64,000 nt of DNA from Leucosporidium creatinivorum. Lineage: Eukaryota; Basidiomycota; Microbotryomycetes; Leucosporidiales; Leucosporidiaceae. Every line of letters begins with the position of its first letter. The stretch's first letter is position 1. The DNA lies in NCBI GenBank assembly GCA_001600635.1, contig BCKL01000015.1, positions 404,942 to 468,941 of the forward strand, read 5' to 3'. The notes under the pieces are model-generated. The model saw only the letters and a program-made list of their open reading frames with translations, had not been told where the DNA came from and ran no database searches. Below, piece by piece: positions 1,185-22,800 of this stretch. Position numbers and translations under genes: made by a program.

Positions 1185-1509
1185 GGGACGTACGTTCGCT
1201 GAGAGAGAGATGTCGTCTGTTCTTGCTATGCATTCCTATCCCCCCCGCTTCAGCAAAGCGTCACAGCCCTCAGCAAAACTCGGTCCTCCTGCTCGGCTCG
1301 AGCGCTTCGGCGAAGAGCGTCTCTCGCGCTCTTAGTCAAGCTGTTATCTCGCCAATATCTCCTCTGTACTTGGGAGCGTTTAGGTACAAGTCACGGGGTT
1401 ATATTTCGTCGATACGTCTCGCGTCTCCTACTCCTCCCGCTCGGCGCTTCCCTCCTGCAACGCATTGTCCGTCTATCGATGCTGCAGCCTCCTACTTATC
1501 ATCTCCTGC
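1185..1509. other. convergent intergenic region
   Basis: This short space lies between the stop codons of the MYND gene and VMA16, which face each other. Nothing coding or structured is recognised. It should contain the 3' untranslated regions of both genes. Confidence 0.6.
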
Positions 1510-4417
1510 TCAGGCGAACTCGGCAGCCTTTCCGCTCTGCGAGGGTGGCGAGACGGCAAGTCAGCTCGACTCGGCTCGGCGGACACAGACGATCAAAACT
1601 CACCACCAGCAGACCGACGATGAGGCCAAAGAGTCCGAGGATGGAGCTGAAGACTTCGATGACGAGGATCTTGACGAAGAGGGCTGTTGGTAGAGGGGGA
1701 GATGTTAGCGATGGCTCGGCGAAGAGGAGGCGCAGGGCGAGTTGGCACCGCGCGTAGCTCAAGGTCTGGCAGAGCTGTATCAACCCAGCTTCGTCGGCCT
1801 GCGAGCGCAGAGCAGCGAGGGACAGGCAAGAGGTGTCGCCGAGACCGAGAAGCTGTCGTTCATCCGAGAAGCGCCGACACCCGCGAGCGAGTAGCTCCAA
1901 ACAGCTCAGCTCGAGATCATGAATCTGCTCCCTCGTCGGCTGCACCCGCGCCGACAAGCGAAGAGATGCGACTTCGAGCGGCGCCGAGCTGGAGAGCCAA
2001 CAGCTCTGCAGCTCTCAGCAGCCCATGCTACTTTGCGGTCGAGAGAGCTCCGAGACGCAGCCGTGATCTTCAATCACCTCCCCCAGTGTGCCTCGCAGAC
2101 CAGCAAGAGAAGGAGCAGCGAGAGCGAGCGCCCCGACGAGCAGCTCGGCGGGAGGAGCCCTCGGCTGGTCGCGACCAGAAGACCAAGGATCCAGCCGCCC
2201 GCGTTCCGCCGACAAGGGCATTGTACAGAAGGCACCGAGAATGAGCAGCAGAAGCGAGCAGAAACAGCCCCTCGAGCTGCTCGCACACGCCTCGGCGCAG
2301 GTCTCGGATGCCTCTCGGCATCGCCCTGCTCCTCCCACCGTCCATTCCCGAAACAGCACAAGAAGGTCGTCTCAGCTGACCGCTTCCGGTAGCGCGAGCC
2401 GATGCCAGAAGCGGAAGCAGAGCAGCCCCCGACTGCTCCGCCTCCGCCTCGACATCGCTCCTCTCGCTCATCGCGCTCCGCTCCGAGCGTACCGCCGCTG
2501 CATCGTACACCGCGCTCGGCCATTTGTCACGAAGTGGCTGTCCGAGTTGTGGGAAGTAAGAGGAGGAAAAGGAGCAGCTTTAGGCTGCCCCTCTCGACCC
2601 ATCTGCCTCGCTCACCCGCTCGACAGCCTCCTCAACCTTCCCGCGCCAACGCAGGCTCCACAAGGCCTGACAAGATGAGGCGCTGAGCGAGCCCCAACAA
2701 GATCTGGGTCCAGAAGCAGAGCAGACAGCCTATCAGGCTGCTCTACTCTCGCCTCCGCTCAGCGCCGAGAGCTCGTTGGCCCCGGCTGCCCTTCGTCGGC
2801 CTTCACAAACATAGCGGATCCGGCGCGAACCACGAGCGTTGCCACAAGTCTTCCCTCAAAGAGATGAAAGCGAGAGCAGTCCTACTGTTCCCGCTTCCAC
2901 CCCAGCTGGAAGGCGCTGCTGCTCGTTCCTCCTGCCTTTACATCCCTGGCACGTCTGCCAGGTGCTCGTCATCACGAAAGACAAAGACAGAGCGGAGTCT
3001 ATGTCCCTCGACCGTAGAAGCGAGAGCGAAAGCAGCACGGCTGCTCCCACTGTCGCCTCGCCTCGGCTGCAAGACGAGGCTCGCTCTGCTCAGCTGCTCC
3101 GGCTCTTCTCGTCTTCGAGCTCCTTGATCGAACGCCGTGCCATCTCGTCCCGCTCCCATCCCCATCCCCATCCCCATCCCCATCCCCATCCCCATCCCCA
3201 TCCCCATCCCCATCCCCATCCCCATCCCCTTCCTTCCCACCCATCCCTCGCTTCCAGCCCCGCTCAGTTCTGCGCCTCAAAGGAAAACTCACAAGGATCC
3301 GCGGCATCGGCCAACGCCGCATTACTCCCACTTATACCCACCGCAATTCCACAAAGGAGGTTACAAGCGCCCATGGTGGCGCCTCCCCAGAAGAGGGAGA
3401 AGCCCGTGTAGTAGTTGGCGGCGGTGTAGAGGGTCGCTTGGGTGGCCGAGGAGGTGAGCTTGGCGGAGAAGACGATGGATCCGATCACGCCGTAGACGCC
3501 GCTGGTTAGGGGAGAGAGCAGGGTCAGCGGGGAGGGGGAGGGCTCGGCGCCGAGAGAGGGAAGGGGCGAAGGGAGAGACTTACACGACCTCGCAGAAGAT
3601 GACGCTGTGAGCCAAGGAAGATAGTATCAGCTTCTAGCTCTCGCTTCTTGCTCTTGCTCCCAATGCACTCGGAGGGCGAGCAGCCACTCGCCCTCGACAC
3701 TCGGGACTCACGAAATCAAGTTCTTGGCGGTGATCCTAGGAGCACGAACTCCTGCACCGAGGATCGATGCACCAGTGATCCAGATTCCCCTGTTTGTGGT
3801 GAAGAGAGAGAGAGCCAGTCGGTCAGCTCGGGCGTCGTGAGTTCGGTGGGATGGGTGCGCAGTCACGCGAGGTGCAGCAGCAGCCAAGTAGCTAGCTCCT
3901 CCTACTCCTCTGCTACCCTGCAGTACATCCATCACCACCACCACCAGCGATGCTCGTGCGCCTTCCCCACCCCACGTCGCTCGCTCGCTCGCGCCCTCGT
4001 CCTCTTCTGTAGCCCTCCCTCCCAATCGCCCCCATCAAAGTCATCTGTAACGTACCATCCAGCACCAATGACCGATAAACCAATATTGAGGGCCACGCCC
4101 GTCAAAGCCCAAGCATACGGCGAGGTATCCTCGAGGAAAGCTCCTGGGTTGAATTGGGTCCCTGTGGGTGGGCCCGACGACCAAGTTTGATGAGCTACAG
4201 CTGTTGGGCTAGCAGTAGCAGAAGATGGGTGAGAGCGTACCGGAACCGGTGAAGATGATGTAGAGTGCTACTACTAGGGTGAAGGAGGCCTGCCAGCGAC
4301 GAGACGAGCGGAACGAGGTGATGCGTGCGTGAGTGCTGAGAAGCTCTAGGGATTTGAAAGGGAGTAACTCACGATCAGGTAGGCGATGAGGCCGTATGCT
4401 CCGCCGTAGAATCCCAT
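1510..4417 (-). CDS. VMA16: V-type H+-ATPase V0 subunit c'' (proteolipid)
   Basis: One of the proton-binding proteolipids of the rotary V0 ring, acting in vacuolar and Golgi membranes. Eight exons fit (4373-4417, 4241-4289, 4056-4161, 3712-3789, 3584-3604, 3293-3501, 1604-1683, 1510-1536); they sum to 615 nt, i.e. 204 residues, the usual size for this subunit. Recognised blocks are [46 protein letters not shown] with the proton-carrying Glu, [20 protein letters not shown] and [11 protein letters not shown]. The start ATG at 4417 gives a short N terminus like the animal protein. The intron at 1684-3292 is 1,609 bp, while the other six are 67-266 bp; homology reads straight across it (DAADP then SLFVKIL), so no exon is missing. 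It shares its upstream region with the divergent paladin-like gene. Confidence 0.95.
1800..3070 (-). repeat. hairpin-unit array inside the VMA16 intron
   Basis: At least six, probably nine, degenerate units recur at a spacing of about 150 bp. Unit cores start near 2251, 2408, 2562, 2714, 2865 and 3016; weaker ones lie near 1803, 1953 and 2101. Read on the minus strand, each core is a purine-rich arm (GGCGGAGG...GGAGCAG), a short loop, and a pyrimidine-rich arm (CTGCTCTCGCTTCTG), so it can fold back on itself. The linkers between cores are not conserved. The same unit occurs at 11690-13190, outside any gene. Spacing and similarity were judged by eye. Confidence 0.65.
3155..3229 (-). repeat. 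(GGGATG)n microsatellite, G-quadruplex-prone
   Basis: About 12.5 perfect copies of a 6-bp unit, CATCCC on the plus strand. On the minus strand, which is the VMA16 transcript strand, it reads as G4 runs separated by AT. It lies about 65 bp downstream of the giant intron's donor. Runs of this kind are known to form G-quadruplexes in DNA or RNA. Confidence 0.95.
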
Positions 4418-5102
4418 CGCTTGGAAGAGAGCTAAAGAGCTACAAAAGCCGAGAGCTGAGCTGGGCTGAGAGAGGGAGGGAGGGAGCTGAGCGGTGGTTA
4501 GCTAGAGAAGAGCGAGAGAGCGATGTAAAGACCTACAGAAGTTTGTTGAAGTAGAAGCAAGTTCTGTAGGTGATTCGGAAGCGAGACGAGGTGACAGTTG
4601 AGAGCCAACCAAGACCTGCAGCTCTGTCCAAGGGTCTCCCTCCTGCTATACCGCGCTCGGCTCTCGGCTCTCGGCTCGGCTTTCACATCAGCTACAACTC
4701 AGCTTATATCGACCTACAGCTTCAATTTGGGACTCAGCTTGCTACACCGCCCAACCTTACCCCCGTCAACTCCCGCCCATCGTCACCGAACAGGCTCCAC
4801 ACGGCGCTCTTGAGCTTATCCTCGTCGTTTCTCTCCTTCTTACTGCTTGTTGGTAGTCAATTAGAGCACAGGTATGTACCTACGTACTGTTCACCCTTAT
4901 CCCGGAGCAGATAGCCCTTCAGAAGCACTACAGCAAGCGCAGCAGCTACCGCCAACGTGACCTCCTTGCCGAGTCACCTGTTGAGTGTAAAGCAGTGCCG
5001 TTTAGTCGGATCCAACACAACGGGAGCGTAGAGCATATCAAGCTGACCAATCCTGCTCTCTCCCTTCGAACTACAGACCTACACCTCCCCATCTCGGCGC
5101 CA
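4418..5102. promoter_or_regulatory. divergent promoter region VMA16 / paladin-like gene
   Basis: This 685-bp space separates two start codons that point away from each other, so it should hold both promoters and 5' leaders. On the minus strand, splice-like sites near 4528-4570 suggest an intron in the VMA16 leader; this is not certain. No TATA box is obvious. Confidence 0.5.
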
Positions 5103-8100
5103 ATGGCTACCCCTTCCTCTTTCCCCTCCCCGCCTTTGGCTTCACCGCCCCTCGCCTCCTCCACCGGGGGTCACTCACGTACAGCCTCACAACCAATCCG
5201 CCGCTCCTCCGTGCACGTCACCACCCACTCCAACTCCCCCTCCATCCCCACCTCCCCCTCCTCACCACCGACCCCCCGTCCCCTCGCAGCCAAACTCTCG
5301 CGAATCCCCTCGGCCTCCTCCTCCTACTCACCCCACCGTCAATTATCTTACAACGACCCCTCTGATCCTCCTCCGCCCCCTCCACTAGACCCTCTCAACC
5401 TCCTCCGCCTCGCGCCCGGCGTAGTCCAATCGAGGACGGGCTCGGTCTTGAGCAGAGGCTTCATCTTGAAGAGTGATGCGAGGCCCGTGGCGCCGGCTAG
5501 TAGTTCCGAGACGGAGGGGTTGGCTTTCGCTTCTGGCTCGTCTTCAGCGGACGGAGGAGCGGGGGAGGGATCGAAGAAGCCAACGCCCGGCGCCGCAGGG
5601 GCAAGTAGTAAACCCAAAGACCCCTCCCTCAACCCACCCAACGACGGCTTCCTCCACCTCACGGGCGCGACCAACTTCCGCGCGGCCTCATTGGGAGTGT
5701 ACGGCGTGGCTCAGCCGACGTTCGCTGGGTTGCAGACTGTTCTCACCCTCTTACGGTCGAATGAGATGACCAACGGGAGGGGGGAGAAGGTGGAGGGGAG
5801 GGAGACGGTCTGGTTCTGTACGAGGGAGGAGCCGATCGTTTACCTTGGGGGGATGCCTTTTGTGCTCAGGGAGGCGAGGGACCCGTTGAGGACTTATGCG
5901 GTTAGTGATCGGGCGGAGAACTTGGAGGGGATTGAGAAGAGGTGAGTTGCGTTTGTTGGTGTTTGAGCTCTACATGGAAGCGAGCGACACCCAGTCGTGG
6001 ACTTGAGACGGCGCACACGCCGAAGAGCGCGATCGCCGAGCTTGGGTCCGGATCGCTGACCTTGCTCGCCATACCTCCGCAGGCTCAAGCAAGACATCTT
6101 GAAGGAAGCAGCTCGCTACGGCGGCATGATTCTCGTGCAAGAGGAGATCCGTACGTCGCTTTTCATCCTCTCATCTCCGCCTCCGACCCTCCCGCTCGGC
6201 TCTTTCCCTCGAGCTGACCTTCTCCTCACATCTCTCCATCTCGTTCGATCGACACATTCCTCTGCCTCATCTTACAGACCCCAATTCCCTCACCCCCTCC
6301 TGGCTCTCCGTCACCCCTCACAGCGTCCTCACCCCCTCCGAGATCTTCTCCTCCCTGACGACCTCCCCCCACTCCTTCAACGTAACGTACCACCGCACTC
6401 CCGTCACACGGGACCAATCCCCCGAAGACCGCTACCTCGACACGTACACCACCCTCCTCGCTACGATCCCGACTTGCTCCTCCCTCGTCTTCAATTGTGG
6501 GATTGGCGTCGTGAGGACTACGTTTGCGATGAGTGCGGCGTTGGTGGTGAGGAGGAGGCAGGTTATGAGTGCGCAGGGGGGGAGAGATCCGTTTGGATTG
6601 AGTGAGGCGGGGAGTGGGAGTGGGGGTGGGAAAGAGGGAGGAGGGGTCGGTGGGGAGAAGGCCAGGGCGGTGCTGTTGGCGAGGGAGGAGCAGGCGAGGA
6701 GGGATAGGAGCTTGTTGAGCTTGATGAGTGTGTTGCAGAAGAGTGAGTGGAGGGTTCTGGCTCTGCCTCGGGCCGAGCCGACCAGCCGACCAGCTGACGC
6801 TTTCGCCTTTCGCCCTTGACAACAGGTCTCGCTACCACCAACCAGGGCACTGTTCTCAGTCTCTTGAGTAACCACCCTCAGCTGCTAGAGAACTTACGGT
6901 ACGTGCTGGGCTTCAGATGCTGGGCGCTCTCTCGGCGGAGGCTGATCCTCTCGCCTCATGTCCCGTTTGTCCCACCTCGTCTACCCCACGCCATTCTACT
7001 CCTCCCGCCTCATTTTCATTTATATCCACCGCCATAGGAACGCCCTCATCGGCAACTACGACCTCATCCTCTCGCTCCTGTCCTGCCTCGACGACGGCGT
7101 CGAGCAGAAGAGCGTCGCCGACTTCATCATTGACCATTGTTTGTCTCCTACCTTCTTCTTCATTGTCTTGCTATCGCTAACCCCCCTTCCTCCCACAGGC
7201 GACGCCCTCGTCAACCTCCGCGAATCGGTCCTGCAACACCGAGTCCGCTACGCCTCCCTCGCTCTCCTGGACAGCACCTCCTCCCTCGACCACCGTTCCA
7301 AAGCCCTCGCCGCGCTCGAGCGGTACTTCTTCCTCGTAGCCTTCTCCTCCTTCGTCGCCACCTCCCCTCCTTCCTTCCCTACGCCCTTCTCCGAATGGCT
7401 CAAAAGCAGGAGTGAGATTGGTGGGATGATTGGGAGGCTGAGGAAGGGGAGGGGCGCTTTTGATGTGTTTGCGCCGGTGGAGGATTTGAGTGGGATTGCG
7501 AGGGGCGAGAGAGGGGTGGAGTTGGTCGGTGGACCGAGGAAGTGGTTGGGCGCGGGAGCGGGTGGGGAGGTCATTGGTGATGAGTGGGCGAGGCAGATTG
7601 TTAGGGTGAGTTTCTGCTGCTCTGCTCTCCCCGACTTCACAAACGAAACGAGCTGACCGTCCCTCCGAACAACTCGCAGAACCGCTCGGGCATCATCCTG
7701 CGCACAGGCATGATCCTCAAGAACGATCAATGGCACGCTACCACCTCTTCCCACCATGAGCACGAAGGTGCGGGAGGCGAGCACGACGAGCAACTCGTTC
7801 GCGGCGCCATCAACTTCCGCCGAGTCGCCGGCTCGTCGCTCTACGGATTGAGTCAGCCGACGCAGGAGGGTATTCAGAGGGTGTTGGAGATGGTCAGGAA
7901 GGGAGGGAAGAGCGAGGGGAAGATTGTGTGGATCAATTTGAGGTGAGTTCGGCTCCGAGTTCGAGGCGCACGACGCTGACCGACTTCGACGTGCGTAGAG
8001 AGGAGCCGCTCATCTACATCAAGTGAGCTACCGCAAATCTCTCGGCTATCGGGCCTCGGATACTGACTCTCGCTGACCTACAGCGGCACGCCTTACGTCC

Positions 8101-11100
8101 TTCGCCAAGAAGCCGTCAGCCTTCGCAACGTCAAATCTTACGCGTGGGCTCCCCTCCCTTCTTCGTCCCTCGTCCTTACTAACCCAGTCCCCTCCCTCCC
8201 TCCAACAGCGGCATCTCCTCCTCCCGCCTCGAACTCCTCGAAGACCGCCTCAAATCCGACCTCCTCTCCGAACTCTCCTCCTTCGACGGCCGCCTCCTCC
8301 TCCACACCGAAGATGAAGACGGCTCCGTCAACCCCATCTGGGAGACGATCGACTCCCCCTCCTGCATCAAGACCGTGCGGGAGATGTTCGACGAAACGGC
8401 GGCTCAGATCTCGGCTTCCAACTCGCCCTCCTCCACTCCTTCAGCTACGCCCTCGACTTCCACTGCAGCAGCAGCAGCATTCAAGTACTACCGCATCCCC
8501 ATTACCGCGGAGAAGAGCCCCGATTTCAGTGACGTGAGGGAGTTGGTCGAAATTGTAGCGCAGTTGGACACGGAGGAAGGAGCGGTAATTGTCAATTGTC
8601 AGTTGGGGAGGGGAAGGAGTACGAGGGCGCAGGTGATTATTACGTTGGTGCAAAGGTGGCTGAGGAGTGAGGGGATGGGGTTGGTGGGGAGTGGAGGGAA
8701 GGGCAAGAGGTCGGGCAGGTATTCGTACACGTGAGTCCGAAGCTCGGTCGACTCAGCCTTCGGATGACGATGTAGCTGACCTTCTTTCGTTCTGCTCCCA
8801 CACAGCGTCATCAACAACCTCCTTCGCACGATTCGCTCAGGCCAGGAGGTCAAGCAAGCCGTCGACGAGGCCATCACCGCCTGTGGCTACACATTTGACC
8901 TACTCGACTCGATTGAGGATGCTCGACAAGAGGCCGAAGACGCAGGCGACGACATCGAGCTCCGGCAACGCTGCGTCGCCCGCGGTCTGCAGAACCTTCG
9001 GTGAGGCTTTTCCCCATCGCCGAGCCGATTCGCGCCGAGCTGACCTCCATACACGATCGAGCAGAGCCTACTACTTCCTCATCCTCTTCTCCTCCTTCCT
9101 CAACGAATCCAAAGCCGAGACCTGGCGCCAACTCCGCGACACCCTCTCGTACGAATCCTACGTCAAGGACCGACCCGTCTTCAAGACCATCGAACGGGAG
9201 CTCGATACTGCGGGCATCGAGGCGCTCGTGCCGCTGGAGAAGCCTATCGCTGCGGGTAATGCGTTGAGCGATGAGGTCGCCGAGTTTGTGGCGAAGAGGA
9301 GCGGTAGGATCTTGTCGCCGTTCACGTTGCTCAAGAGCGATTACTTCGTGCGTTCTCTCTTCCTCTCGCTCGCTTGGAGTCCACGAGAGCTGACCTTGCT
9401 CTCGATCGAACAGTCTGGACTTCAAAAGATGAGCCTCCCCGAGCGAGTCGAAGGCGCGCCCAATTTCCGCCGAGTTCGTCTCCTCTTCGGCAATGGTGGA
9501 GGAGACGCTGCTACTACTCCAGGAGCCGTACCGACCGGCGCCGATGGATCTTCGCTGGTCTACGGAACGGGCATGCCTACCGTCGACGGGTGAGTCTTTT
9601 CTCGACTCAACTCGCCCGCCCGAAGCTCGAGCTAACCTTACCGCTTCTCCCTCTTCAGTCTCCGCCGCGCCCTCGAGAAGATGGGAGGACACGAGAAGCA
9701 TATTGTCTGGACCTCGATGCGCGAGGAGCCCGTCATCTGTTCGTCGATCTCCTCCCTCCCCCTCTCCCTCCCCTCTCGGCTGACCTCCCCTCGCCTCCCG
9801 ACTAGACGTCTCCGGCGGCCGACCCCACGTTCTCCGCCTCTTCGACGCCCCACTCGAGAACGTCGTGACCACAGGAGTGACGACCGAGACGGTCGAAGCG
9901 ATGGAAGTGGCGCTCAAGGAGGATCTGCTGCGCGAGGCGGAGAGCAATGGTGGCAAGATTCTGTTGCATGATGAGATTGTCGAGCCGAATGGGAGCTTTA
10001 CGGTGACGGCTATCTGGGAGGAGGTTTCGGCTGGAGAGTGAGTCCTTCTCTCCCTTTCATCCTCTCTGTTGGTCGAGCGCCGAGCTGACCTCTCGACTGC
10101 GGCCGAACAGCATTCTCACCCCTCGCGAGGTCTTCGCCATGATGCGTCAAGAAGGCCTGCAGGTCGACTATGAGCGTCTTCCCGTCACGGACGAGCAGGC
10201 GCCGATCCCTGGTGTCTATACTCGTATTGAGGAGCGAGTGAGTAATGCGCTGAGGAGCAATCCCGACGATACGGGACTTGTCTTCAATTGTCAGATGGTG
10301 GGTCGTTCTCCTTTTTCTATTATAGCGTGGAGCTGACTCCCAGTCTACTACAGGGTCGAGGCCGAACTACTACCGGAATGTACGGCTTGCTCTCCCTCAC
10401 TCCCTTCTCCTCGGCCTCACTGACCCTGCCCTCTCCTCACTCCATCCACAGGGTCGCCGCCGCCCTCATCTCCAACATCCTCTTCAACAACCAGCAGAAC
10501 GTTTGCACCGACCTCTCCGCCTCCATCATCGGGGACAGCGAGTCCCTCTCGCTCACCTGGGACGGACGAGAATCCGACCCCTACCTTTCGGGAGAGTACA
10601 AGATTGTGCTCCAACTTGTGGGGGTCTTGCAGCATGGCAAGACGGCGAAGAAGTTGACGGATCGGGCGATTGATGGGTGTGAAGGTGCGTCCCTCAGAGC
10701 TAGAAAGAGGAGCGCCGAGAAGGAAGCTCACCCGACCGAGCGACACAGGCGTCCAGAATTTGAGGAAGGCGGTGTATGACTTTAAGCTGCGCGCTGAGGC
10801 TGCTGATCTCGGCTCGGTGAAGCACGGCAAGATCTTCCACGTCGCTTGTAACTATCTCTACCGGTGCGTTGCTCTCTCATTCCTTCCCCGCTCGGCTTTC
10901 TCGTTGACCCTCGGTCGTGGAAACAGATACGCCTCCCTCATCGTCTTCGCCAACTACCTGCTCGAGAAGAGCGCTTCCCTCGCGGACGACACGGATACGG
11001 AGGATGAAGGGGAGCAGCGGCCCAAGATGAAGCCCTTCAAGGAGTGGTTGGCCGATCGGAGGGAGATTTCGCACATCTTGTCGAGGAAGACGTTGGAGTA

Positions 11101-11101
11101 G
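5103..11101 (+). CDS. paladin-like protein with three PTP-like phytase domains
   Basis: A protein of roughly 1,500 residues from about 20 exons. After a Ser/Pro-rich N terminus of about 190 residues, three repeats follow. Each opens with a block like NFR...YG..QPT and WxxxREEPxxYxxGxPxVLR and later carries a C-x5-R phosphatase loop: NCGIGVVRTT (near 6490), NCQLGRGRST (near 8597) and NCQMGRGRTT (near 10290-10370, split by an intron). This is the paladin / PTP-like phytase family, linked in animals to phosphoinositide handling and signalling. The first loop has lost the GRG seen in the other two. The start ATG is the first in frame. Introns have CTGAC branch sites; one donor is GTTTGT (7139). 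The substrate cannot be told from sequence. Confidence 0.9.
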
Positions 11102-14100
11102 AGCTGCGGTAGAGTGCTATACAGACACAATGGTCTAGTGTAGATCAGAGACAGAACCGAGAGTCGAGCCGAGTTGAGGCGACCGCTCCCTTTCGCCGAG
11201 CCTCGTCGACTTGCTCTCCCTCTCCTGTCCCGCTCCCTCTCTCTCCTCCCCTTGTCTCGTCTCGTCTCTTCACTTCCACTCGACGCGTCACACTTGCTAC
11301 AGCTTCACACTCGCCTATCTACGCTGTACCCTCTCCTCTCGCCCACTTCTGCACCTCATCACCTCTCCCTCACCCTCTAATCTGGACCTCGCCTTTCATC
11401 TCGCCTTTCGCCTCTTTCACTCGCTCGCCTCTCTCGCACCTCTCAGCAAGCTAATCTGTCGAAGACAGATATTCGGTGCACGGACAGTGGGAGCAGGGGA
11501 TGAAGTACAGCGCAGCCAGCAGGAGATGGGAGACGGAAGGTCAGCCGAGGGTTGGCTGGTGAGTCGCTGCGATGCGAAGGCTGGAGCTGAGCTGGGCTGT
11601 AGGAGAGTAGGAAAAGTAAGCTCAGGCGGTGTAGATCAGCTGGGATTGAGAGCAGAGCTGAGCTGTAGCCGACGAGGGACAGCCGAGCGCTGATCTAAGC
11701 GACGAGGGGAGCAGCTAAGGGGGCTGCTTCGCTCTTCTCTCTGACGCCGGCGGGTTGCCAGTCTCTTTGAAAGCGTAAAAGGATGCCTACCGCTCATGGC
11801 AAGCTGCTGGTCAGCACACAGCCGACCAGCCGAGCCTCACGCCGAGGTGGACGAGGGGTAGCAGAGCTCGCTGCTGCTCTCCGCTTATATGTCGGGATCT
11901 GCCTGCTGATCAGCTAACTTGAAATTTGGGCTAGCCAATATCAGGATAGTGTGGAGCACAGTAAGGGAAGAGGCGACGAGCCTAGAGCTCAGCGAGCCTC
12001 GCCATCTCCCTCGAGGCCGACGTGGGGAGCAGCTGAGCTGCTTTCTGCTTCGCTTCTGGCGATGAGGGTCGGAGACTGTAGCTTCATACTACATGTTGCC
12101 TTGCTCTCTCCTCTTCCCTGACGCCGAGTGCAAGGTAGGGAAGCAGAGCACCGAGTGCGCGTTCGGCGCCGAGTCGAGGCAGAGGGGAGCGGCTCGGAGC
12201 GCCGTTCTGCCTCTGCTTCTTCGCCCTCGGGAGGCTCGCTCGCTAGGCTCTATCCTTATTGCTTTTTGGCTGCACTGCCGAGATCCACGAAGCGACTAGA
12301 CATTCAAGGACCACCTGGCGAGCAGACGAGCGAGCCGGCGACCGAGCTGAAGCGGTGAGGGGAGCAGCCTGGAGGCTGTTCTCCTACTTCTTCTACTGTA
12401 GGGGCGCGTGTTGAATGAAGCTGGCTGCTCCGCGTCATACTCTGCCAAGAGTCGCAGCAGATTTGCGGCCGTGTCGAACTACTCGAGCCTGCGCCGAGGT
12501 GGGAAGGGGGCGTAGCTGAGCTGCTCTCGCTTTTGCTTCTGTTCTGTTCAGGAGGGTGGGGCCTCGACACGGAAACGCTCTGGGGAGCTCTTCATGGATC
12601 AGCATACCGTGGTATCAGCAGGAGCGACAAGAGGAGTTGCCGAGCCGAGCTGGGAGACGGATCGGCAAGCTACTGGAGGCGGCTTGTCGGTTCGCATCTC
12701 TTTCTTGGCTCTGAGCGCTCATCTACATCTTTTGTCCCTTGCTTCCTTGCGGATCAATCTGCCAAGGGAGCAGAGCGCGCCGCTGGCAATTGGAGCCTTG
12801 TCGCCGAGCAGAGGTCGGAGGGGAACGGTCGCCGACTGTCGCCTTTCGCTTCTACCTTGGCAGTGACTGACGCTCTGAGGTGTCAGCATGCAGCGGTGAC
12901 ACTTGATAGTAGCGGTGACGCCACCAGGAGCAGCAGCAGGCGAGCAGCGTGCGTCGGCCTGAGGCGGGTCGAAGGGATAGCCGAGGGCTGCTGCTCGGCG
13001 CCTGGCTCTAGGTCGCGACCGCAGCGTCGTCAAATGCTGCACATAAATTTGTGCCAAAACAAAGGAGCTATGCGAGGGTAGTGGGGCCAGCAAGTTCTCG
13101 CTCGGGAGCGCCGAGACCTGAGCCGAGGCGGATGGAAGCTGCCCAAGGGGCTGCTTCTGCCACCTCTCGGCCTCGAGCTTTCCCCTTCTCTTCGGAGCTA
13201 CACTACGTGTTTAACTGTCCCCCATGAGAAGCAGAAGAGCTCAGTAGCTGGCCAAGCAGCCTTCGCCGAGATGAGACGGGTGCGCTTGAAAGCGGACTGG
13301 TCTCTTCTCTGTCGATGGAAGTTGGAGGTCAGCTGCTCAAGAGTACAGCCAAAGCCTGAAGGGAGGCTGCGCGGCGTGAAGAGCATCCCCTGGGTAGCTG
13401 TCCCAGTCGGACAGCGCCGAGCTGGTCGCCGAGTTGCTCGCTCTCGCTGCTCCACGTCTTGCCGGTCTGCAGAGGCAGGCTGGAAAAGTGGCGATACTAA
13501 GGTGCGAAACCGGATCGGACACAGCTCCGCTTGGGTCCATCTTTCGCTGTTGTGAGCTCCCTCCCGCAGTCTCGAGCTGCCCTCTGCGCGTCAACATCCC
13601 ACCCATCTGCTCGATGGTGGCGATGGCTGCTGGTGAGCTGGTGTGTTCTGGATCTTCGTCGCTTCAGATGACGTCTGTAGGCTGAGCCCTGCAGCAAGGG
13701 AATTGACGCCCCCGGGGCTACTCTCGGCGCGACCTTTGCCCGTTCTCGCTGCCCTGCGCTGACAAGGTGGCGGAGCGGACTCAATCGGTGGGAACACGAA
13801 AGAGTAAAATGCGACAATTGAGGTATTTCACTTTGCGTCATCGTGCATGAGCTCCCCTGCAGCTCCTCTGCTCCCTCAGCAACAACTGCTCAGGCCTCCC
13901 TCGTCTCGGCGGCTTGCGGAGGCAGGCTGGGAGCTTGGGGTAGCGTAAGGGTAGGTGAGATTGCCAAAAAAATCTCTGGATGCTCATTGCAGTCTGATAG
14001 CGCAGAAGGGGCTGTATTCTGGTGCAGTTCGGTCTCTTCCGAGCCTCGCCACGGCTCACGCGCTCTTCTCGCTGGCCGTGTGCAGGCTAATGGGGCAGGT

Positions 14101-14819
14101 GCTCAAAGCTCACAGCTGTAAATAGCCCTTTTCTACCCTCCCGCGTGTCATATACAGGCCTGAACATGGCTCAGGATCCAATACCCTTCCTTTGGGCGAT
14201 CCTCTGTCGGCGCTCGGCTCGTCTGCAAGGCAGGCAAGGAGGAGGTGGCGCTACCGGTTGTGCGGAGTAGCAAGAGCTGTGTGTTGCACTCTTTTGTATG
14301 CTGTTGACGGCGCTCACCATCTCGCTCCGTCTGATTTGGCTGAGCCTCGCTGCACCCGAGGATGAACGCCGAAAGGCAAAGCGGAACTCTCGCGCCGTCT
14401 GCTGACATCTCGTCCTCTCCTCCCACCCGAGATTTCACGCAAGCTGATCTCTGCCTTCTCTTGCAGCGCACTGAGCTCGACCTGAGCCTCAACATTGCTC
14501 TCGGCGCAGTTCCACCGTTCTCGACGCTCGCGATGCGTGGTGTGCAGCGAAGAAGGATGCGACGGACGACAGGCAGAGAGTAGCAGAGAGGAGGATCAAT
14601 GACACACAAGAAGTCCAGTTAATCAGCCTGTAGGGCTTGAAGCCGGATCTGGCGAGCGCGAAGGACCGAAAGCCGAACCGGCCAGCAGGCTGTATCGCCC
14701 AGGGCCCAAGAGAACCTCCAAAAGACGGCCCCATACTCTCAACAACATCAATACTTCACAGATGACTCTATTGACAGTCACAACTAGTCTCAAGCTCTTC
14801 AGCTCGACCGACTCGGCGC
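11102..14819. other. 3.7-kb gene desert between convergent genes
   Basis: No open frame here shows recognisable protein motifs or a consistent splice pattern; the longer frames look like chance frames in GC-rich DNA. The region includes the 3' untranslated parts of its two convergent neighbours. Its main content is the hairpin-unit array at 11690-13190. Beyond about 13.2 kb, weaker traces of the same units (near 13430 and 13860) and scattered GCGCCGAG octamers occur. Confidence 0.7.
11690..13190 (+). repeat. intergenic hairpin-unit array
   Basis: About nine degenerate units of 50-60 bp recur every 145-175 bp. Their GAGCAG-type cores lie near 11709, 11858, 12027, 12187, 12362, 12510, 12670, 12822 and 13135. 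The general form is CGCCGAG, a purine-rich arm ending GGGGAGCAGC, a loop of 3-12 bases, then GCTGCT and a pyrimidine-rich arm like CGCTTCTGCTTC. The clearest copy is at 12012-12058. It is the same family, and the same sense relative to the transcript strand, as the array in the VMA16 intron. Linkers are not conserved. Confidence 0.65.
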
Positions 14820-16536
14820 TCAGAGCTTGTTCTTCTCGCGTTCGACGTGGATGACGATCTGCAAGTCGACCTGCGTTAGCTTCGTTTTTTATAGAAGCTT
14901 GAGAGCGCCCACACACCTTGCCAAACTGTCCTCCCGCCTTCATGAGCTTGAAACCCTCCTCGGCATCCTCGAGCGAAGGAAGGACAGTGTGGACGACGGG
15001 ACGGATCTTGTGCTGGTCCACAAACTTGACGGCCTTCTCAAACTCTTCGCGCGAGCCCATGGTGGATCCTGCGCCAAGCTAAGGATCAGCTCTGGCCCTG
15101 CGTGGAACGAAAGCCGAAAGCTCACCCTTGAACTCGCAGTTCTTCAATACGAAGCCCATGCCGACTGAGACGTCTCCGCCGGCGGTCATACCGTAGCAAG
15201 AGATGATGCCACCGTTCTTGAGAAGACGAGTAGCTTGGTTGACAATGCTTCCTCCGCCCGAGTCGACGACGGAGTCGAGGTAAGGTCGGTCGGAGGGGAG
15301 GAGAGCTTGCAGTTTCTTGGGCCAGGCGGCTGTGGGCAGAAACGGGTGAGCTCACGAGAGCGTAGAGAGAGGCTCCTGAGCGTACCATCCTTGTAGCTGA
15401 CACCGCCCTTGGCACCGAGCTCAACGGCGCGCTTGATCTTGTCCTCCGAGCTGGACGAGACCTACGTTGGAGTGGGGTCAGTGATCACTGAGCAGGAAGC
15501 GTCGACAACCTCAGAGCCTTCTGCTCACCCAGACGTTGGCACCTGAATCACACGAAGAGCTCGTCAGCGCCGAAACGTTAGCGAGGAACGAGAAGGCCCA
15601 GCTCACCAGCAGCGACACAGAACTGAAGAGCGGTGATGGCGACTCCTCCTCCGATGCCGGTGATGAAGACGTTCTGTCCTTTTTCAACCTTGGCCTTGGT
15701 GAAGACGGCACTGTTAATGAGCGAGAAGTCAGCTCGAGAAGCATCGCCGAGCGAGAAGCCGACTCACCGATACGCCGTCAGCCCACCAAGCGGTAGAGCA
15801 GCAGCCTCACTCCATCCTTCTTTCCCTCGTCCAGCAAAGTGCTTGGGAGCAGCAACAACATCATCCTTGCCGACAACGATGTACTCGGCGAAGGTGCCTC
15901 GGCCACCCGTCTGACGCTGAGATCCGAGAATTCCCCAGTCGCCTTCGGGGCCGAGCTCCGACTTGGTCCATCCTACAGCGGGAGCAACGAGCACCGCCTG
16001 GTCGTGCAGCGGGTGGCCGCGAGTGAGAACGATTCCAACTGCGTCGGCTCCCATCGTCGAAGGCGTGTCGTCCGTGGTGAAGATGGCGCCTGGGTACATA
16101 CTCTGGCGTAAGAAGACATCTCGGTGGTTGAATGCCGCGGCGATAATCTTGACTAGGACTTGGCCTTCGCCAGCGACTGGGACTGCGAGCGGAGAGCGAC
16201 TGGTCAGCTTTCGCTTCGGCGCGGTCCGTGTTTGCTCCGCTGTAGAGCCGAGTCCCTGGAGCATCTTAAAGTCGTCCAGTGACGCTGTCCCGTAGCCTGC
16301 ACCGCGCCCGAACACCCTGCAGCTTAACGCGCTCATCGTCATCTCCTGCCGGCACAACAAGCACCGTTCTGCCTGCTTCTACTCGTCCGGCAGCAGCGGC
16401 ATTGACATGCAAACCTCCAAGAAGCCCCACTGGTGCTCGGACACTCACTGGCAAGATCCACGAGCTTGGTAGGGTGCCAGCAGCTCGGCCCCGGCTTGAA
16501 GTCGCCGGTAGATTTAACGAGGGTGAGGCTCTTCAT
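14820..16536 (-). CDS. medium-chain dehydrogenase/reductase, zinc-free (YogA-like)
   Basis: An NAD(P)H-dependent oxidoreductase of the quinone-reductase-like MDR group, about 340 residues. Exon 1 (16449-16536) gives MKSLTLVKSTGDF; a 266-bp intron follows, and exon 2 resumes with VAGEGQVLVKI, the usual first strand of the catalytic domain. AAFNHRD and GADAVGIV follow, then the Rossmann fold with ITGIGGG-like and GAKGG segments, and the end is FGK-IVIHVEREKNKL. The structural and catalytic zinc Cys/His sets of alcohol dehydrogenases are not seen. An in-frame ATG six codons upstream (16554) could also be the start; 16536 has the better context (ACCATGA). The closest known style is the fungal YogA zinc-type alcohol dehydrogenase-like family. 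The physiological substrate is unknown. Confidence 0.85.
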
Positions 16537-16814
16537 GGTGTCTCCCTGGGGCATGAGAGTACTGCGAGTGATACGAGAGAGTTCGCTGTGCTCTGCGGTG
16601 AGGTGAAGTGACGAGGCGAAGTGAGGGGAGGAAGGTGAAAGTGATTCGCGCGCAGCTCGGCAGTGGGGCCCTGGGGCAAGGGGCTTCGCTCTTCTCGAGG
16701 CTAGGGTCTCGCGCAAGGAATAGACATATAGATACAGGTGATGTGGCATGTCCCCGAAGCCCCGACCTCTCCGTCTCCTCCTCCTTTATTCCCCCTTCGC
16801 CGAACCCTCCTCAG

Positions 16815-19673
16815 CTACATCTCCTCCGCTCCTTCCTGTCGTCCATAGTCGCAAACGATCCTAGGCGTAGGGTAGAAGGGCTTGGTACGCTTGTCCTTGA
16901 CTCGATGGGTGATCTCGCGAACCTGCGAGTCAAGCAAACGCAGAGGGTCAGCCTCGTTCGCCGACGGAGAGAGAAACCCTAAGCGAACTCACCAGCTGGC
17001 GCCACTCCCAAAGCTCTAGATCCTTCTCGTAGACAGGGAAGTCGAGCCAACGGAAGGCCTTGCCCTTCTCATCGAGCTGTTCGAGCGTGGCCTTGTCCTC
17101 GTCGAGCTCGGCGGCGGCCAGGATCGCCTTGACGACGGTCGTAAACTGCCTTCCGATGGCTTCGGAGACGTCGAGGGCCGAGTCCGTGTAAGTCCTGGAC
17201 GACTCCCAAGAGGAGGTTTGATGAAGCCCATGGTTGAGCACGGCGGGATAAGGTTTGACGTCCACGCTGAACGCCTCGCGGCCTCGAGCTGTCCAGGAGC
17301 GGTGGAAGAAGAAGAAGTGGGAAGTGATATGGTCGAAAGAGTAGCCGACGTCAAAAGCGGCGAGCTCCTCGAGGTCGGTGAGAGTAGAGTAGTTGACGAC
17401 ATCATTGTAAGCGAAGGCGAGAAGGTCGCCGAGCTCGAGCTTTGGCGGAACGAATAGGCCTCGATGAGCGGCTCGGACGAGCGCCATCATCCGGAGCCGG
17501 TCCATGTAGCATCCTTGGGAAGCGTGCTCAATGATGTCGGCCTCTGCAGCGCTCCAAAGTGCCTCGTCCACGAAGGCGTTGTCGGCCTCCCAAAAGACGG
17601 CGACGGGAGGGAGGTCGAGGAAGACCTCGAACCGGGGGCAGTACAGCGACTCCTTGGTGGTGAGGCTGGCGACGAACCGCTCGTAGTAGGGGCGGACAAG
17701 CTGTTTACGCTCGTGCTGTCTGCTCCTCAGAGCGCACTCCTCGGGGAACGCCTTGTTGCGGGCCATCCTGTCGACAATCGCGTCGTGCAGCTCGCTCCAG
17801 CCTGGGAGATGGGAAGCACGGTCAGTGACGGCGCGCTCGCGAACTGGCGAAGCTCATCACCCTCAAGATCTTCCGCAGGCGAGACGGTGGGAGTGCTCCG
17901 AGCCGGGCCAAGTTCGAGCCAGTACGAGATCCTGCGCGTCAAAACGGTCAAGGAGAGCAAGAGTAGGTCAAGTCATTGGGCTGGCTCACTCAGCCTCGGT
18001 CCATCCCAGATCTAGAAGCTGAGGTGTGTGTCTGCGAGAAGGGAAAGCGTCAGCGCCTCGTCGACCAACTTCGTTCAGCGCCGACAACCTACACCTCGTT
18101 GTCTGCTCGGAACGCTTTATGCTGGCGCGCATATTCGATTGCTCGAGGACTTCGGTACTCTTTGCGCCAAGTCTCCACAGCCTGGGCCAGCACGTCCGAT
18201 TCCTGCGAAGTATCGAAGTGAGCGCCGCGCCGGATCATCTCAAGGTTCAAACTCACCTCGTACAGCTTAGCGAGCTGGAGAGCCTTGTCCTTGACGAACG
18301 CATCGACCCGACTCATTCCTGTGGGTACATCCTCCGCCGCGAGTCGACGAGTGCGAGTGCGCGACGACTTCGTCCGCTGAGAAGCCATCGCCTCTAGCTC
18401 GTCCTCATCGTTGAGCTCAAAAAGCTGGTGACTTGATGCCTCGAGCTCCGCGATCAAGCAGTACACTGTTCAGAGAACGGTCAGTGTTCTGCCAGTAGTT
18501 GTGAGAAGCCGAATACGAACCCGATGCAGAGGCTCCGTATCCGGGCATCTTGCGGCGGTCGCCTATACAAGGGCGAGGGATTAGTCTCGCAGTCGTGTCG
18601 GATTTCCAGCTTCAGACTGACGCCGATTGCCGAGGCAGCATTCGGAAGCGCGAGGGTGGATGGAAGGGAACATGACTCGGCTCTTCGTACGATCCTTCGC
18701 GACGACACTGTAGAGATCATGCATTAGCGGCGAAGAGTGAGAGGTATCATCAGTGATACTCACAGCTGCAAACGGCACGTCGAGCAGAGGCGGGTCCGAA
18801 AGTAGCAGTCGAGCTCTCCTCGTCTCACCGAACATTCCTGCGAGAGTCGTCAGTGCATCAGCAGCGACCTCACTGCACCGAGCCTGGGCACTCACCCAGC
18901 ATGCACGACCAAAGACGAGGACGGCAAACTTAATCTCGCTGAAGCCGGTGAGCGAAGGCAGCTTCGCTCGGCGCCGAACGGCGGCCCAGATGGCTTGGGC
19001 GCGGTTCGAGAGAAGGAAGTCCCGCCAGATCCGGGAGGTACGACAGAGGTTCATTAAATCTTTCGGACCGAGATGGGTGCAGATCTGGGGACGTCGGAAG
19101 AGGTGAGCGGCGCTTCGGAGGAAGGCATGTGCCAAGAAGCTCACCTCGGCGAGCAGCTCGACGGGCAGGGCCAGCGCTAGCTCGAGGACGGGCGAGAGCT
19201 TATCTGCGCGTTTCTTTGCGCCTTGGATGTTGTAAGCCGTCCTGAACATGCTCTTTGACTTGGTCTTGGCCGCTTTTGCTATGAGGAGAGCCGAGAGCAA
19301 GTCAGCGCCGAGACTCGCAGATCTCATATCTCAGAGCGAGGAAACTGTTCAGTGTGGCTCTTGAAGCCCCGCAACGCCGTCCATCCCAGTCGTGCCGTGC
19401 TGCAGCGCCCACGGGCAGTGCTTGGGACGCGCCGTCGTCTCCTTCAGCTCCTCAGCAGCCTACTGGCGGAAACAGAGCAGTATGAGACTACTTGACGCTC
19501 CTTCATCTCTTCCCCATTACCCTGTGCCAACGAGAGGGCCCACTCGGTCTTCACCTCACTGCAGACTCACCTGTCCTGGCCGCAACACGCTCCTCCTGGT
19601 CGATATCGACATCGCTATCGACCTCTCGGTAGCTGACTGATGCTTTGGTGCTATTCCGACGAGATCCGGTCAT
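16815..19673 (-). CDS. F-box / CxxC protein, family copy A
   Basis: One of three related genes in the window. Its N terminus carries YREVDSDVDIDQEE, like copy C. An F-box-like segment follows (LPVELLAE, then ICTHLGPKDLMNL...FLLSNRAQAIW), then FAVLVFGRAC and a CWEC...CSTC pair, then a helical R/E/K-rich stretch. The C-terminal half has FEVFLDLPPVAVFW and ends WLDFPVYEKDLELWEW with a short last exon (stop at 16815). F-box proteins normally link substrates to SCF ubiquitin ligases through Skp1. The intron that splits the first CxxC after its second residue is shared with copies B and C. The first intron region (about 19285-19570) is long and may hide an extra exon; exon borders there are uncertain. 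The function is not known. Confidence 0.75.
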
Positions 19674-19853
19674 CGCGAGTCGAGAGTCGAAGCAGAATCG
19701 AGGTAGCGGGAAGAGCGAGAGCTGAGAGAGGCGGACGCTGAGGACAAGTCGCGTCGAAAGTTGGGTCGAATGGAGCGGAGTAGGTACATTGCTAGTCAGA
19801 CAACAGTCTAATTTAGTGGTACATGTGCTCCCACGTTTCCTGCTGGACCCAGA

Positions 19854-22800
19854 TCACTCCAAGCCCCTCTCGGCTTCGGCGCTCGTCCTCGACTCCGCCT
19901 CTGCAGCGAGTCGTTGCGCTTTCTTGCGCTGCCACATACCTCGAATCAAGGAGACGAGCTGCTTCTCCCCCGCTTTGAAGTTGGCTGGGTTGGAAGGGAT
20001 GGGTCAGCGAGTGCACGGCGACCGAAGGCGAGGACTCACCCTTAGCCAACGAGATCATCTTGTCCGTCTCCTCCTCAGTGTACTCAAAGCGCCATGTAGA
20101 CCAAACTTCGGTGACGTTCTCGAGCTCGGGTCCTCCGGTAAGTGGGAAGTAGCTGCGAGGCGAACGCGGTCAGTCAATCGCTCGGCGCCGAAGCAGCAGA
20201 AGGCCGTTAATCACGCCAAAGCGATGCCATCCCTCGCGACGACGTCCTCAACGGTAGGGTTGTCGTTCCTGCAGCTCGTGTCCTCCTCCTTGCTCGAGCC
20301 GATCCAAATGCTGCAGGCGAGGAAGGAGAAGGGGAAGGGGGAGGAGGTCAAGTCAGCCGGGAGTCCTTGTGTACACGAGTCGCGCTCCGCTCTCAAGCGC
20401 AAAAAAGAAGGAGAGATAAGCAGAGAAAGAGAAGGACCGACACTCACTTGCACTTGCCCAAAGGCGGCTCCTTCGCCGAGCTCTCGGGCATAGGCTTATT
20501 CTCCTTCTGCTCCTCATCCTGCTCCTCACCATCCTTCCATCCCGAGCTGTGCGGTCCACTCCCCACTGGCGGCGGCTGAGGATTGACCTCCTGCTTCCTA
20601 TGCGGCGGATGACCTGCCGCCGCTTCTTCCTGCGCTTTCGCTTGGTCGACCTTGAGCGCCGCGGTGTCGGGGTCGGAGGTGGTCGCTGCTTCGGGGTCGG
20701 GGAAGAGGGAGGTGGCGTCGATACGGGGCCAGAGATGGAGGGAGCGCTGCTCGGCGTATTCGGCGGCTCGAGAGAACCAGAGATCTTGGGAGTCGGCGCT
20801 GGCGTCGAGGGCGAGGAGGATGTCGCAGTCGCGGCGGAAGAGTGGGAGGTAGGGGAGGTTGAGGTTCGCTCCTGCGAAGAGAAGATGTCAGTTGAGCTCT
20901 CGTACACGAGAACACGGGACTCACCAGCATCCATGAATCCCAGAGTATCATGCTTGGTAATATTCTCCGGCGACCCCTCCCTCAGCTTGCCATCCAACCC
21001 TTTCAAAAAGTTTGGTAGCTCGGCGGGCGGGAAAGGGTGGATCGCGTCGAGTTGCGCCTGATTGTTCTGTACGAACGTGCTGATCGTACCCCAGAAGGGG
21101 AGGGCGGTGAGGAGGGGGCGGACTTCGTTGTAGTACTGTTGGGAAGGGAGAGCAAGATCAGCGAGTGTTCGGCGGCGCCTGGGGGGTGGAAAAGGCTCAC
21201 GCTGAAGAGGGTGGCGCAGAAGGCGGAGGCGAAGATGCTATGCGGGATATGAGACCGAAAGAGTCAGCGGAAGGCCGAGCGAAGGGAGGGCGAGTGAGAA
21301 GGGCTCAGCGGACGAGGAAGCTCGGCGTGGATCTGTCGGGGAAGACGAGGAACAGGCGACTCACCCGGACATGACGGTCAAGCTGAGCTCAGGTATCCGT
21401 TCCGTACTCTTGCCATTCTCGAACAGTCGACCGAGCGCCCAAGTCGGGATCCAAGCGCCGAGCTCGTCGCAGCCGACCTCTGCAGGACAAGAAGAGGGTC
21501 AGCTCGTCTCGCAGCGAGCGAAGCGATCAGAAGAGCGGGGGAACGCACCATAAGGCGACACCTCAAACCACATCCACCTCCCCTCCCTAACGACCAACTC
21601 CTTCCTCCTCTCCTCCAACCTCTTCTTCTCCTTCTCCTGCTTGCCCGTAAACCCCAAACTCCCACTAACGCTCTTCTTCATCCTATCCATCAACTTCTCC
21701 TGCTCCTCCTCTAGTTCCTTGAGATTGGGCAACTCGTGGCGGATGGCGCAGTAGATGGGGAGGGGGTGGGAACCATCGTCGGTCAGGTGTCGTTGGTGCG
21801 AGATTTTGAGGTGGTTGTGCGTGAGAGTGGAGAGATCTGAGGGGACGTAGAGGCGCGCGGAGACGAGGGTGCCGTAGGCGTCAACGCTATGGAGGTAGAG
21901 CGTTAGCAAGGTTCAGCTCGGCGGGAGAAGGGAAAGCTGAGAGGACGAACATGGACACCTCGCCAGCTTTGCTCGACTGCTTAAGGACCGCTCCCGAGAG
22001 CAGGTACTGCGCGAGAGGAAGTCGGTCAGCCTTCGCACTCTTCTTACTCCCTCGGCGCTGCTCGAGCTCACCTGACTCGTCGGCTGGTTCGTCAACAACT
22101 CCACCGTACTCGGGTCCAAGAACGGCGTAGTGATCCTCTCCCTAACATGCTTGATCGTCTTGTCGATGTCTCCTCCTCCGACCGAGTACATCGTATTGAG
22201 CGCCCAGCACGAGCCCGAGACGGCCGAGACGAATGAGATGAGATCCCAGAGGCCGGTCTCTTTGGCTGCGGAGATGGAGCCGAGGGTGGAGACCATCGCT
22301 GGGGAAGTAAGATGGGTTAGATCCGCGAGCAGAGCGATGGGTGAGGAGCCAGGACGAACCTCGGTAGCCTCCTCCGCTGCCGGCCATGGCGATGACGGGG
22401 ATGTCCTCCACCCTGACCTCGCTCTCATCAACGCCCATCAACTTGGCAAAAGGCTTGAGCGCCGCCTCCTTCCTATTCCTAAGGAAAGCTCGCTCGGAAA
22501 GGCCCAGCTCGGTCCCTGCGAATCCAGGCGGTCAGCCTTTCGCCGAGCGCCGAGTGAAGGCCCAAAAGCTCACCTAACCGCACCGTAGCATCCCACCCAA
22601 CCTCCTCATTAATCCTCTCATCATCCTTCCCCGCCAGAATCTTAGCTACCGTGCTCCCCTCCCCTCCGCTCAACTCATTCCCCAAATCGCCAAAGCTCTT
22701 GCTCAGCTTGCTCAAACTATCCGACCAATTCTTGATAGTAGCATTGAGGTCCGGAATAGGGATATCGGGTATCGATACAGATGGCAGCTTGGGCAGCGAC

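Follow-up and report, generated by a model that had tools for sequence, protein, structure and literature searches.

In Schizosaccharomyces pombe, the RNase III enzyme Pac1 acts on stem-loops of at least 20 nucleotides (nt) and tolerates bulges and loop variation, and the hairpins predicted downstream of its small nuclear RNAs (snRNAs) have stems of 23-32 nt and loops of 3-5 nt, as described in one study (PMC8421224). Well-supported hairpins of fungal microRNA-like RNAs (milRNAs) are short, with an inter-duplex length that is usually minimal (<20 nt), and some lie in introns; the words cluster, tandem and polycistronic do not occur in the main text of that paper (PMC9757828). In Drosophila, the hp-CG4068 cluster consists of tandem hairpins on a common transcript, with 20 copies in D. 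melanogaster and 9 in D. simulans, and its small interfering RNAs (siRNAs) are reported to be lost in dcr-2 mutants (PMC10317233). Here we describe a string of hairpins in a 64,000-nt stretch of the Leucosporidium creatinivorum genome (C15:404942-468941, hereafter the window), designated locus A, together with two full copies on the same contig (loci B and C) and a shorter array D within an intron of the window. The four loci apparently form a family of paralogous non-coding RNA genes.

The arrays resemble the Pac1/Drosha-type hairpins of fission yeast in stem length, in their small and variable loops and in their snRNA neighbourhood; the fission yeast hairpin is described as lying directly downstream of the snRNA on the same strand, whereas the hairpin strings here occupy the opposite, convergent strand (PMC8421224). 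With fungal milRNA loci they share short hairpins, a short inter-duplex distance and an intronic position in some cases (PMC9757828). Tandem arrangement is also shared with hp-CG4068, but the fungal hairpins differ strongly from one another in sequence, are spaced at about 157 nt with unconserved linkers, and are known from sequence alone. Intron 10 of rodent Sfmbt2 reportedly holds a tandem microRNA cluster with many related hairpins; these are mammalian microRNAs, whereas array D, with its six hairpins, sits in an intron of 1.6 kb and has paralogs outside coding genes. Xist A-repeat and roX-type long non-coding RNAs (lncRNAs) have conserved structured cores with less conserved linkers between them, a likeness that extends to the core/linker layout only, in a different organism.

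Locus A is an element of about 3.07 kb on the plus strand (11169..14238 of the window; C15:416110-419179). A first-pass annotation had placed an array at 11690-13190 in a gene desert; the location was right, and the array is the middle part of the longer element. Locus B (C15:400869-397863, minus strand) and locus C (C15:370114-373187, plus strand) are full copies collinear with A, so that three collinear paralogs with 65-68% identity over about 3.1 kb lie inside 50 kb, the B and C arrays being 68% alike. Sliding identity and alignment of A-C revealed that identity varies along the element, well-kept blocks alternating with poorly alignable stretches. All conservation reported here is between paralogs within one genome (27.7 Mb, 63 contigs), of which about 264 kb of C15 and some short loci were read. 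The A-B-C alignment begins with a pyrimidine-rich 5' part with conserved patches (11172..11480, plus strand), probably the promoter or start region, followed by the word GTGAGTC (11559..11565, plus strand), which is identical in A, B and C and may be a 5' splice site ahead of the array.

Folding of the plus strand of A located eleven hairpin units: U1 (11690..11745), U2 (11838..11890), U3 (12008..12058), U4 (12166..12222), U5 (12340..12393), U6 (12490..12542), U7 (12638..12700), U8 (12800..12856), U9 (12950..13012), U10 (13118..13172) and U11 (13262..13312). U2, U4, U5 and U8 were also found by a search with the covariance model R1, which was trained on six sequences, U3 and U6 of A, B and C, and run on both strands of 264 kb; U10 is additionally identified by comparison with D. 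The arms of U7 differ in sequence while its phase is unchanged, and U8 and U9 are weak in B. The positions and the order of U1-U11 are kept across A, B and C, with a few units folding poorly in one copy, and each hairpin of A-C is preceded by a conserved leader of about 25 nt. The U12 block with the start of the 3' domain (13412..13600, plus strand) is among the most conserved A-C stretches in sliding identity and alignment, yet folding gave no clear long hairpin there; its first part is common to D. The unit statistics below refer to 39 units, namely U1-U11 of A, B and C together with D1-D6, U12 being excluded. Within the 3' domain, a shorter hairpin-like word, GCCGGTCTGCAGAGGCAGGCTGG with its relatives, was seen three times by eye (13450-13480, 13905-13935 and 14215-14238) at intervals of some 455 and 310 nt, close to multiples of 157 nt. 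The 3' domain alone gave a 156-nt peak that was not significant (70 of 1000 shuffles).

Array D lies on the minus strand in a 1.6 kb intron (1684..3292; donor GTGAGT at 3292, acceptor CAACAG at 1684, read by eye) and in sense with its host, a VMA16-like V-ATPase c'' gene. The two halves of an ATP-synt_C match flank the intron (E 0.0013 and 0.0011, both under Pfam's cut-off), and a protein reading across the junction fits VMA16, the V-ATPase c'' subunit, which we take the host to be. A 13-copy hexamer repeat of CCCATC (3155-3233) stands in the same intron, ahead of D in the transcript sense. R1 returned 22 matches at E<0.01, comprising the six training sequences, 14 other array units, all on the expected strand, and two matches outside the arrays (a single hairpin at L015:847-886, C15:469747, E 1.6e-4, and another at window 5506-5535 with E 0.0056). 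Array D holds five of the 14, with E 4.2e-8 to 0.005, which bears out the first-pass claim that the desert and the intron carry arrays of one degenerate unit: D1 (3015..3061, E 4.2e-8), nearest to U3, D2 (2859..2905), D3 (2711..2757), D5 (2406..2452, E 5.8e-7) and D6 (2249..2295), which is nearest to U10 of A. D5, found by folding as well, has the longest stem (-49.1 kcal/mol over 64 nt). D4 (2560..2616) was missed by R1 and is included on folding and phase. When these six units were used as a profile of sequence alone, the best D match scored 30.1 bits, reached by none of 300 dinucleotide shuffles; just three D matches exceeded 5 bits (30.1, 9.3 and 7.8) and one shuffle hit scored 9.9, and the sequence-only signal in D is weak beyond D1.

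The homology of D to A extends past single units. By alignment to A and C, the stretch at 1780..2150 (minus strand) contains the U12 block together with a portion of the 3' domain, with 61% identity to C over 386 columns (E 8e-16) and 83% to A over 69 columns. The best matches of D keep the order of A, from D1 with U3 to D6 with U10, then U12 and the 3' domain. BLAST of D against A-C gave 44 same-strand matches (best E 8e-16) versus 17 on the opposite strand (best E 0.002); some same-strand matches leave the collinear diagonal because the units are similar to one another. From these alignments, we read D as a shorter, partial paralog of A-C rather than an independent look-alike. This homology, the paralogs B and C and the neighbouring snRNA cluster go beyond the first-pass annotation.

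Hairpin centres are spaced at 142-174 nt in A (mean 157), 117-176 in B (152), 145-178 in C (158) and 148-158 in D (153.5), which agrees with the spacing first proposed for the desert (145-175) and for the intron (151-154). Three-way identity among A, B and C is 63% in the leader, 67% in the 5' arm, 73% in the 3' arm and 53% in the loop, and falls to 25% in the 25-nt trailer and in the linkers, in line with the early impression of conserved cores between unconserved linkers; counting the leaders as linker gives 40% for linkers versus 70% for cores. The conservation follows a period of 157 nt with a power of 37, against a mean maximum of 6 in block shuffles (0 of 1000 shuffles reach it). In a cruder test, in which a unit mask was slid along the array, 19 of 1658 shifts gave a contrast as high as the one observed. 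Among units, the arms diverge, columns averaging 50% identity when eight units were aligned in 24 rows, an alignment in which MAFFT partly misplaced the 3' arms. The hairpins thus appear, from this pattern, to have been kept by selection while the linkers drifted.

Folding of the 39 units gave main-hairpin stems with a median of 19 pairs (interquartile 18-20), of at least 18 pairs in 32 of 39. Stems are mostly 18-22 base pairs (bp) long, with 26 in D5, and loops are mostly 3-5 nt, 5 nt or shorter in 32 of 39. The sense strand folds more stably in 38 of the 39 (means -25.9 vs -16.3 kcal/mol), the exception being U10 of A, and against dinucleotide shuffles the sense strand averages a folding z-score of -2.18, with 22 of 39 units under -2, and the antisense strand one of -0.64, with 9 of 39 under -2. 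The consensus stems hold 416 Watson-Crick, 136 G-U, 9 A-C and 28 other cells in sense, compared with 372, 21, 23 and 16, respectively, in antisense. As G-U pairs form only in RNA of the right strand, the G-U/A-C asymmetry speaks for RNA; composition could cause part of it, and the sense strand remains the better one by the z-scores, in which composition is taken into account. Selection therefore appears to act on the RNA of one strand. The structure of one paralog is retained in the others at 82-87% of pairs; sliding it by 1-4 nt leaves 46-61% on average. Compensating changes, expected for a repeated folded RNA, were counted in two alignments. In A3, fitted with the model (25 rows, one of them the off-array match at 5506-5535), 90.1% of cells are paired and 33 cells are changed on both sides versus 12.5 in shuffles; in A4, a sequence-only alignment in which some D units are misplaced, 83.6% are paired, with 18 such cells versus 9.0 and 1 of 500 shuffles as high. 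These counts, the strand-specific folding, the retained pairing and the lack of codon periodicity (see below) favour the repeated folded-RNA element among the options first raised; its expected compensation exceeds shuffles in both alignments and is only mildly favoured by permutation between paralogs.

Several results weigh against reading the arrays as cut multi-hairpin precursors, the explanation set out below. A3 was itself fitted to structure and includes an off-array row. In A4, a control slid by -3 has 11 both-side changed pairs against 10 in place, with fewer such cells (12 vs 18). The permutation of substitutions between paralogs is a weak test: the sense null had as few broken pairs in 27, 38, 70, 118, 229 and 388 of 2000 permutations in the six comparisons, and the null reached the observed value in 163 to 990 of 2000 in the antisense comparisons. 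Doubly changed pairs that were kept beat the null clearly in one of six comparisons (1 of 2000), mildly in two (60 and 87) and not in three. When the folding window is widened by 18 nt on each side, the predicted stems often lengthen and vary more (a median of 23 pairs and an interquartile range of 17-30.5), so that the tight 18-20 range partly reflects unit trimming and a constraint on stem length should not be over-read. Some units fold poorly, such as U9 of B with 8 pairs and U8 of B with 13. The arms differ widely among units, U7 and U11 sharing little with U3, and the leader is conserved nearly like the arms, which dicing alone would not demand. On these comparisons the stem is well supported and the fine covariation less so.

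The reading that we rank first, at a probability of about 0.4, is a processed multi-hairpin precursor, an RNase III-family substrate that would yield small duplex RNAs. The array would be transcribed into a multi-hairpin substrate of Dicer or of a Pac1/Drosha-like RNase III, which would read stem length rather than loop sequence and cut every hairpin. One transcript would thus provide about ten short duplex RNAs for Argonaute, as in a polycistronic milRNA or hairpin RNA (hpRNA) cluster. Stems of about 19 bp, small loose loops and kept pairing in diverging arms would fit an enzyme that reads stem length. The precursor of D would be the VMA16 intron. A-C probably have a transcript of their own, in which the array may likewise be intronic, following the conserved GTGAGTC. 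A scaffold, or a basal recognition motif, accounts better for the conserved leader than dicing does. It is an even chance, in our estimate, that the arrays represent an undescribed lncRNA gene family, with one member in a V-ATPase gene intron and two beside U2 genes, in which hairpins of RNase III size stand like ruler marks about every 157 nt and the RNA either releases small duplex RNAs or gathers about ten protein copies.

The second of these outcomes, an uncut scaffold or sponge RNA, is a tentative alternative that we place after the precursor. A single copy of a protein that combines double-stranded-RNA binding with single-strand reading would dock on each leader with its hairpin, and the spacing of about 157 nt would bring about ten such copies together on one transcript, much as in lncRNAs built of repeats. 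Such binding would account for a leader conserved similarly to the arms and above loops, trailers and linkers, for the eleven unit positions kept in order in three full copies with few folding poorly in one, and for arms that vary among units with pairing largely retained. Against it, there is no known protein partner, and the present evidence does not separate binding from cutting. If the RNA is not diced, the arrays would still form a family of repeat-domain lncRNAs in which units, spacing and paralogs are clear and whose working part would be easy to test. A co-transcriptional brake is unlikely: Pac1-like cut sites would terminate or degrade the host transcript, which would tune VMA16 by way of its intron and curb read-through where B and C face the U2 genes. 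In S. pombe, Pac1 is described as working in this manner at mfs2 and at snRNA genes (PMC8421224), and B and C end 209 and 405 bp, respectively, from a convergent U2, while D lies in sense in its host intron. The better hairpins, however, are on the array strand and not on the U2 strand, and hence are not terminators belonging to U2 itself; a brake would need fewer than eleven sites; and no snRNA reaches the gathering score anywhere in the window, so none stands beside locus A.

The remaining alternatives dispense with a function in RNA, and both seem improbable to us. A degenerate satellite of about 157 bp whose cores bind protein or phase nucleosomes would explain the sharp conservation period, and 157 is near the nucleosome repeat length; the strand asymmetry in folding energy and in G-U versus A-C pairs would be unexpected for a function in double-stranded DNA. 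The nucleosome-phased locus raised by the first-pass annotation is thus not needed, the asymmetry pointing to RNA though the period is near nucleosome size. Its other option, a decayed satellite with selected cores, probably describes the origin of the arrays, given the near-unalignable linkers and the period of about 157, and falls short in that the arrays do not look like mere decay. The least probable case is that of neutral remains, duplicated repeat-rich sequence whose cores only seem conserved. Here, conservation is between paralogs of one genome, and gene conversion could copy cores; conversion, however, would need to halt at every unit end in three copies, and linkers at 25% three-way identity lie beside arms at 67-73% with a 157-nt period.

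Known classes of repeats and RNAs were compared with the arrays. A protein-coding repeat gene was rejected, since mismatch rates per codon position are 0.31-0.39 and near-flat in each comparison, giving no codon periodicity; gap runs divisible by three number 12 of 74, 10 of 75 and 14 of 77 in the A-C comparisons. Rfam 15, searched over window 1-20000 at E<=2, gave a sole match at 10644-10700, far under the cut-off and outside the arrays, and at the gathering score over 134 kb including A-D it gave five matches, only to U2, U4 and U5 and none in the arrays. The arrays belong to a known kind, the tandem-hairpin RNA locus, and as first proposed they match no known family, neither in Rfam 15 nor in the literature searched, where no description of such a hairpin array was found among the papers listed. 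For a small nucleolar RNA cluster there was no Rfam match in the arrays, no search having been aimed at C/D or H/ACA boxes. In an hp-CG4068-type array, the tandem hairpins are alike enough to give one shared siRNA; this candidate was rejected as the unit arms here diverge. Tandem one-strand hairpins with stems of Dicer length, as in a polycistronic milRNA/hpRNA cluster, are what the folding model predicts. Dicer and Argonaute are represented in the genome by domain matches: Piwi-domain matches lie on C14, C4 and C25, RNase III-domain (Ribonuclease_3) matches are present, and on C7 at about 1.054 Mb and on C2 at about 1.437 Mb a Dicer_dimer match stands some 2 kb away from an RNase III one. Some Piwi matches form oppositely oriented pairs of equal or nearly equal score (C4:864311 and 881647; C14:652242 and 660667).

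When the whole genome was searched at the DNA level, with A, D, the 3' part of A, B and C as queries, the matches listed were all in C15:370-419 kb, and a dispersed transposable element, whose copies would be expected on many contigs, was rejected. These copy-number searches give lower-bound counts, and further arrays may exist elsewhere, above all on contigs after C15. A scan of 264 kb for the density of one-sided hairpins found several other 1.6-kb stretches scoring level with A, C or D; the scan does not single out the arrays, which are marked by phase, homology and conservation rather than by hairpin density. The motif first reported (CGCCGAG, GGAGCAG, CTGCT and CGCTTCTG) is a consensus only: neither A, B, C nor D contains all of it in a row letter for letter, and an exact copy of the arm part occurs in three units, U3 of A, U3 of C and D5. 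CGCCGAG does not serve as a mark of the unit, being contained in the commonest non-N 8-mers of the 264 kb, GCTCGGCG/CGCCGAGC and GCGCCGAG/CTCGGCGC, and hence not array-specific. GCCGAG in array cores is mostly on the sense strand (15:2, 14:0, 17:1 and 6:1 over the four arrays), and CGCCGAG across the four whole elements gives 10:3, 8:1, 9:2 and 3:3 for the sense versus the other strand. A degenerate pattern 1, built on the common 8-mer word, has 174 matches genome-wide versus 42 for the reversed control, about four times as many; among its matches listed, to C15:371435, the nearby same-strand pair at C8:681671 and 681813 showed no array when read. Pattern 2 has 14 matches (control 8), of which six are in arrays, two of them overlapping, and eight are single elsewhere.

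Locus A starts 68 bp past the end of an open frame, counted from its stop codon; upstream of this frame lie two PTPlike_phytase matches, presumably the paladin gene of the first-pass annotation. Other Pfam matches of the region (Fe_hyd_lg_C, HSP70, MFS and FA_hydroxylase) belong to ordinary genes; 20 open frames were searched, most from 124 chosen in C15:360-432 kb, and six matched. No tRNA was found in the 64-kb window. The Rfam matches comprise an inverted pair of U2 beside C and B (C15:373592-373785 and 397461-397654), on which the two arrays converge, with an inverted pair of U4 (C15:383701-383835 and 388385-388519) and one U5 in the B-C interval. The two U2 copies next to B and C share at least 150 bases without a difference, beside arrays that are 68% alike, a contrast that suggests gene conversion of the snRNA genes. 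A second inverted U2 pair (C15:277154 and 280985) may or may not be accompanied by an array: the unit model found nothing below E 3 in 1.5-kb loci around it and around an inverted U1-like pair below the cut-off (C17:49102 and 51041), loci that essentially did not cover the U2 3' side, where the arrays of B and C lie. The word TACCAC occurs within 130 bases upstream of eight of nine snRNA matches (U2 3/4, U4 2/2, U5 1/1, U1-like 2/2) and, judging from this recurrence, could be part of the snRNA promoter of the host fungus; it is absent from window 11169-11560, ahead of array A. An 11-mer, GCTGTACCCTC, is common to one U2 upstream region and A, perhaps by chance.

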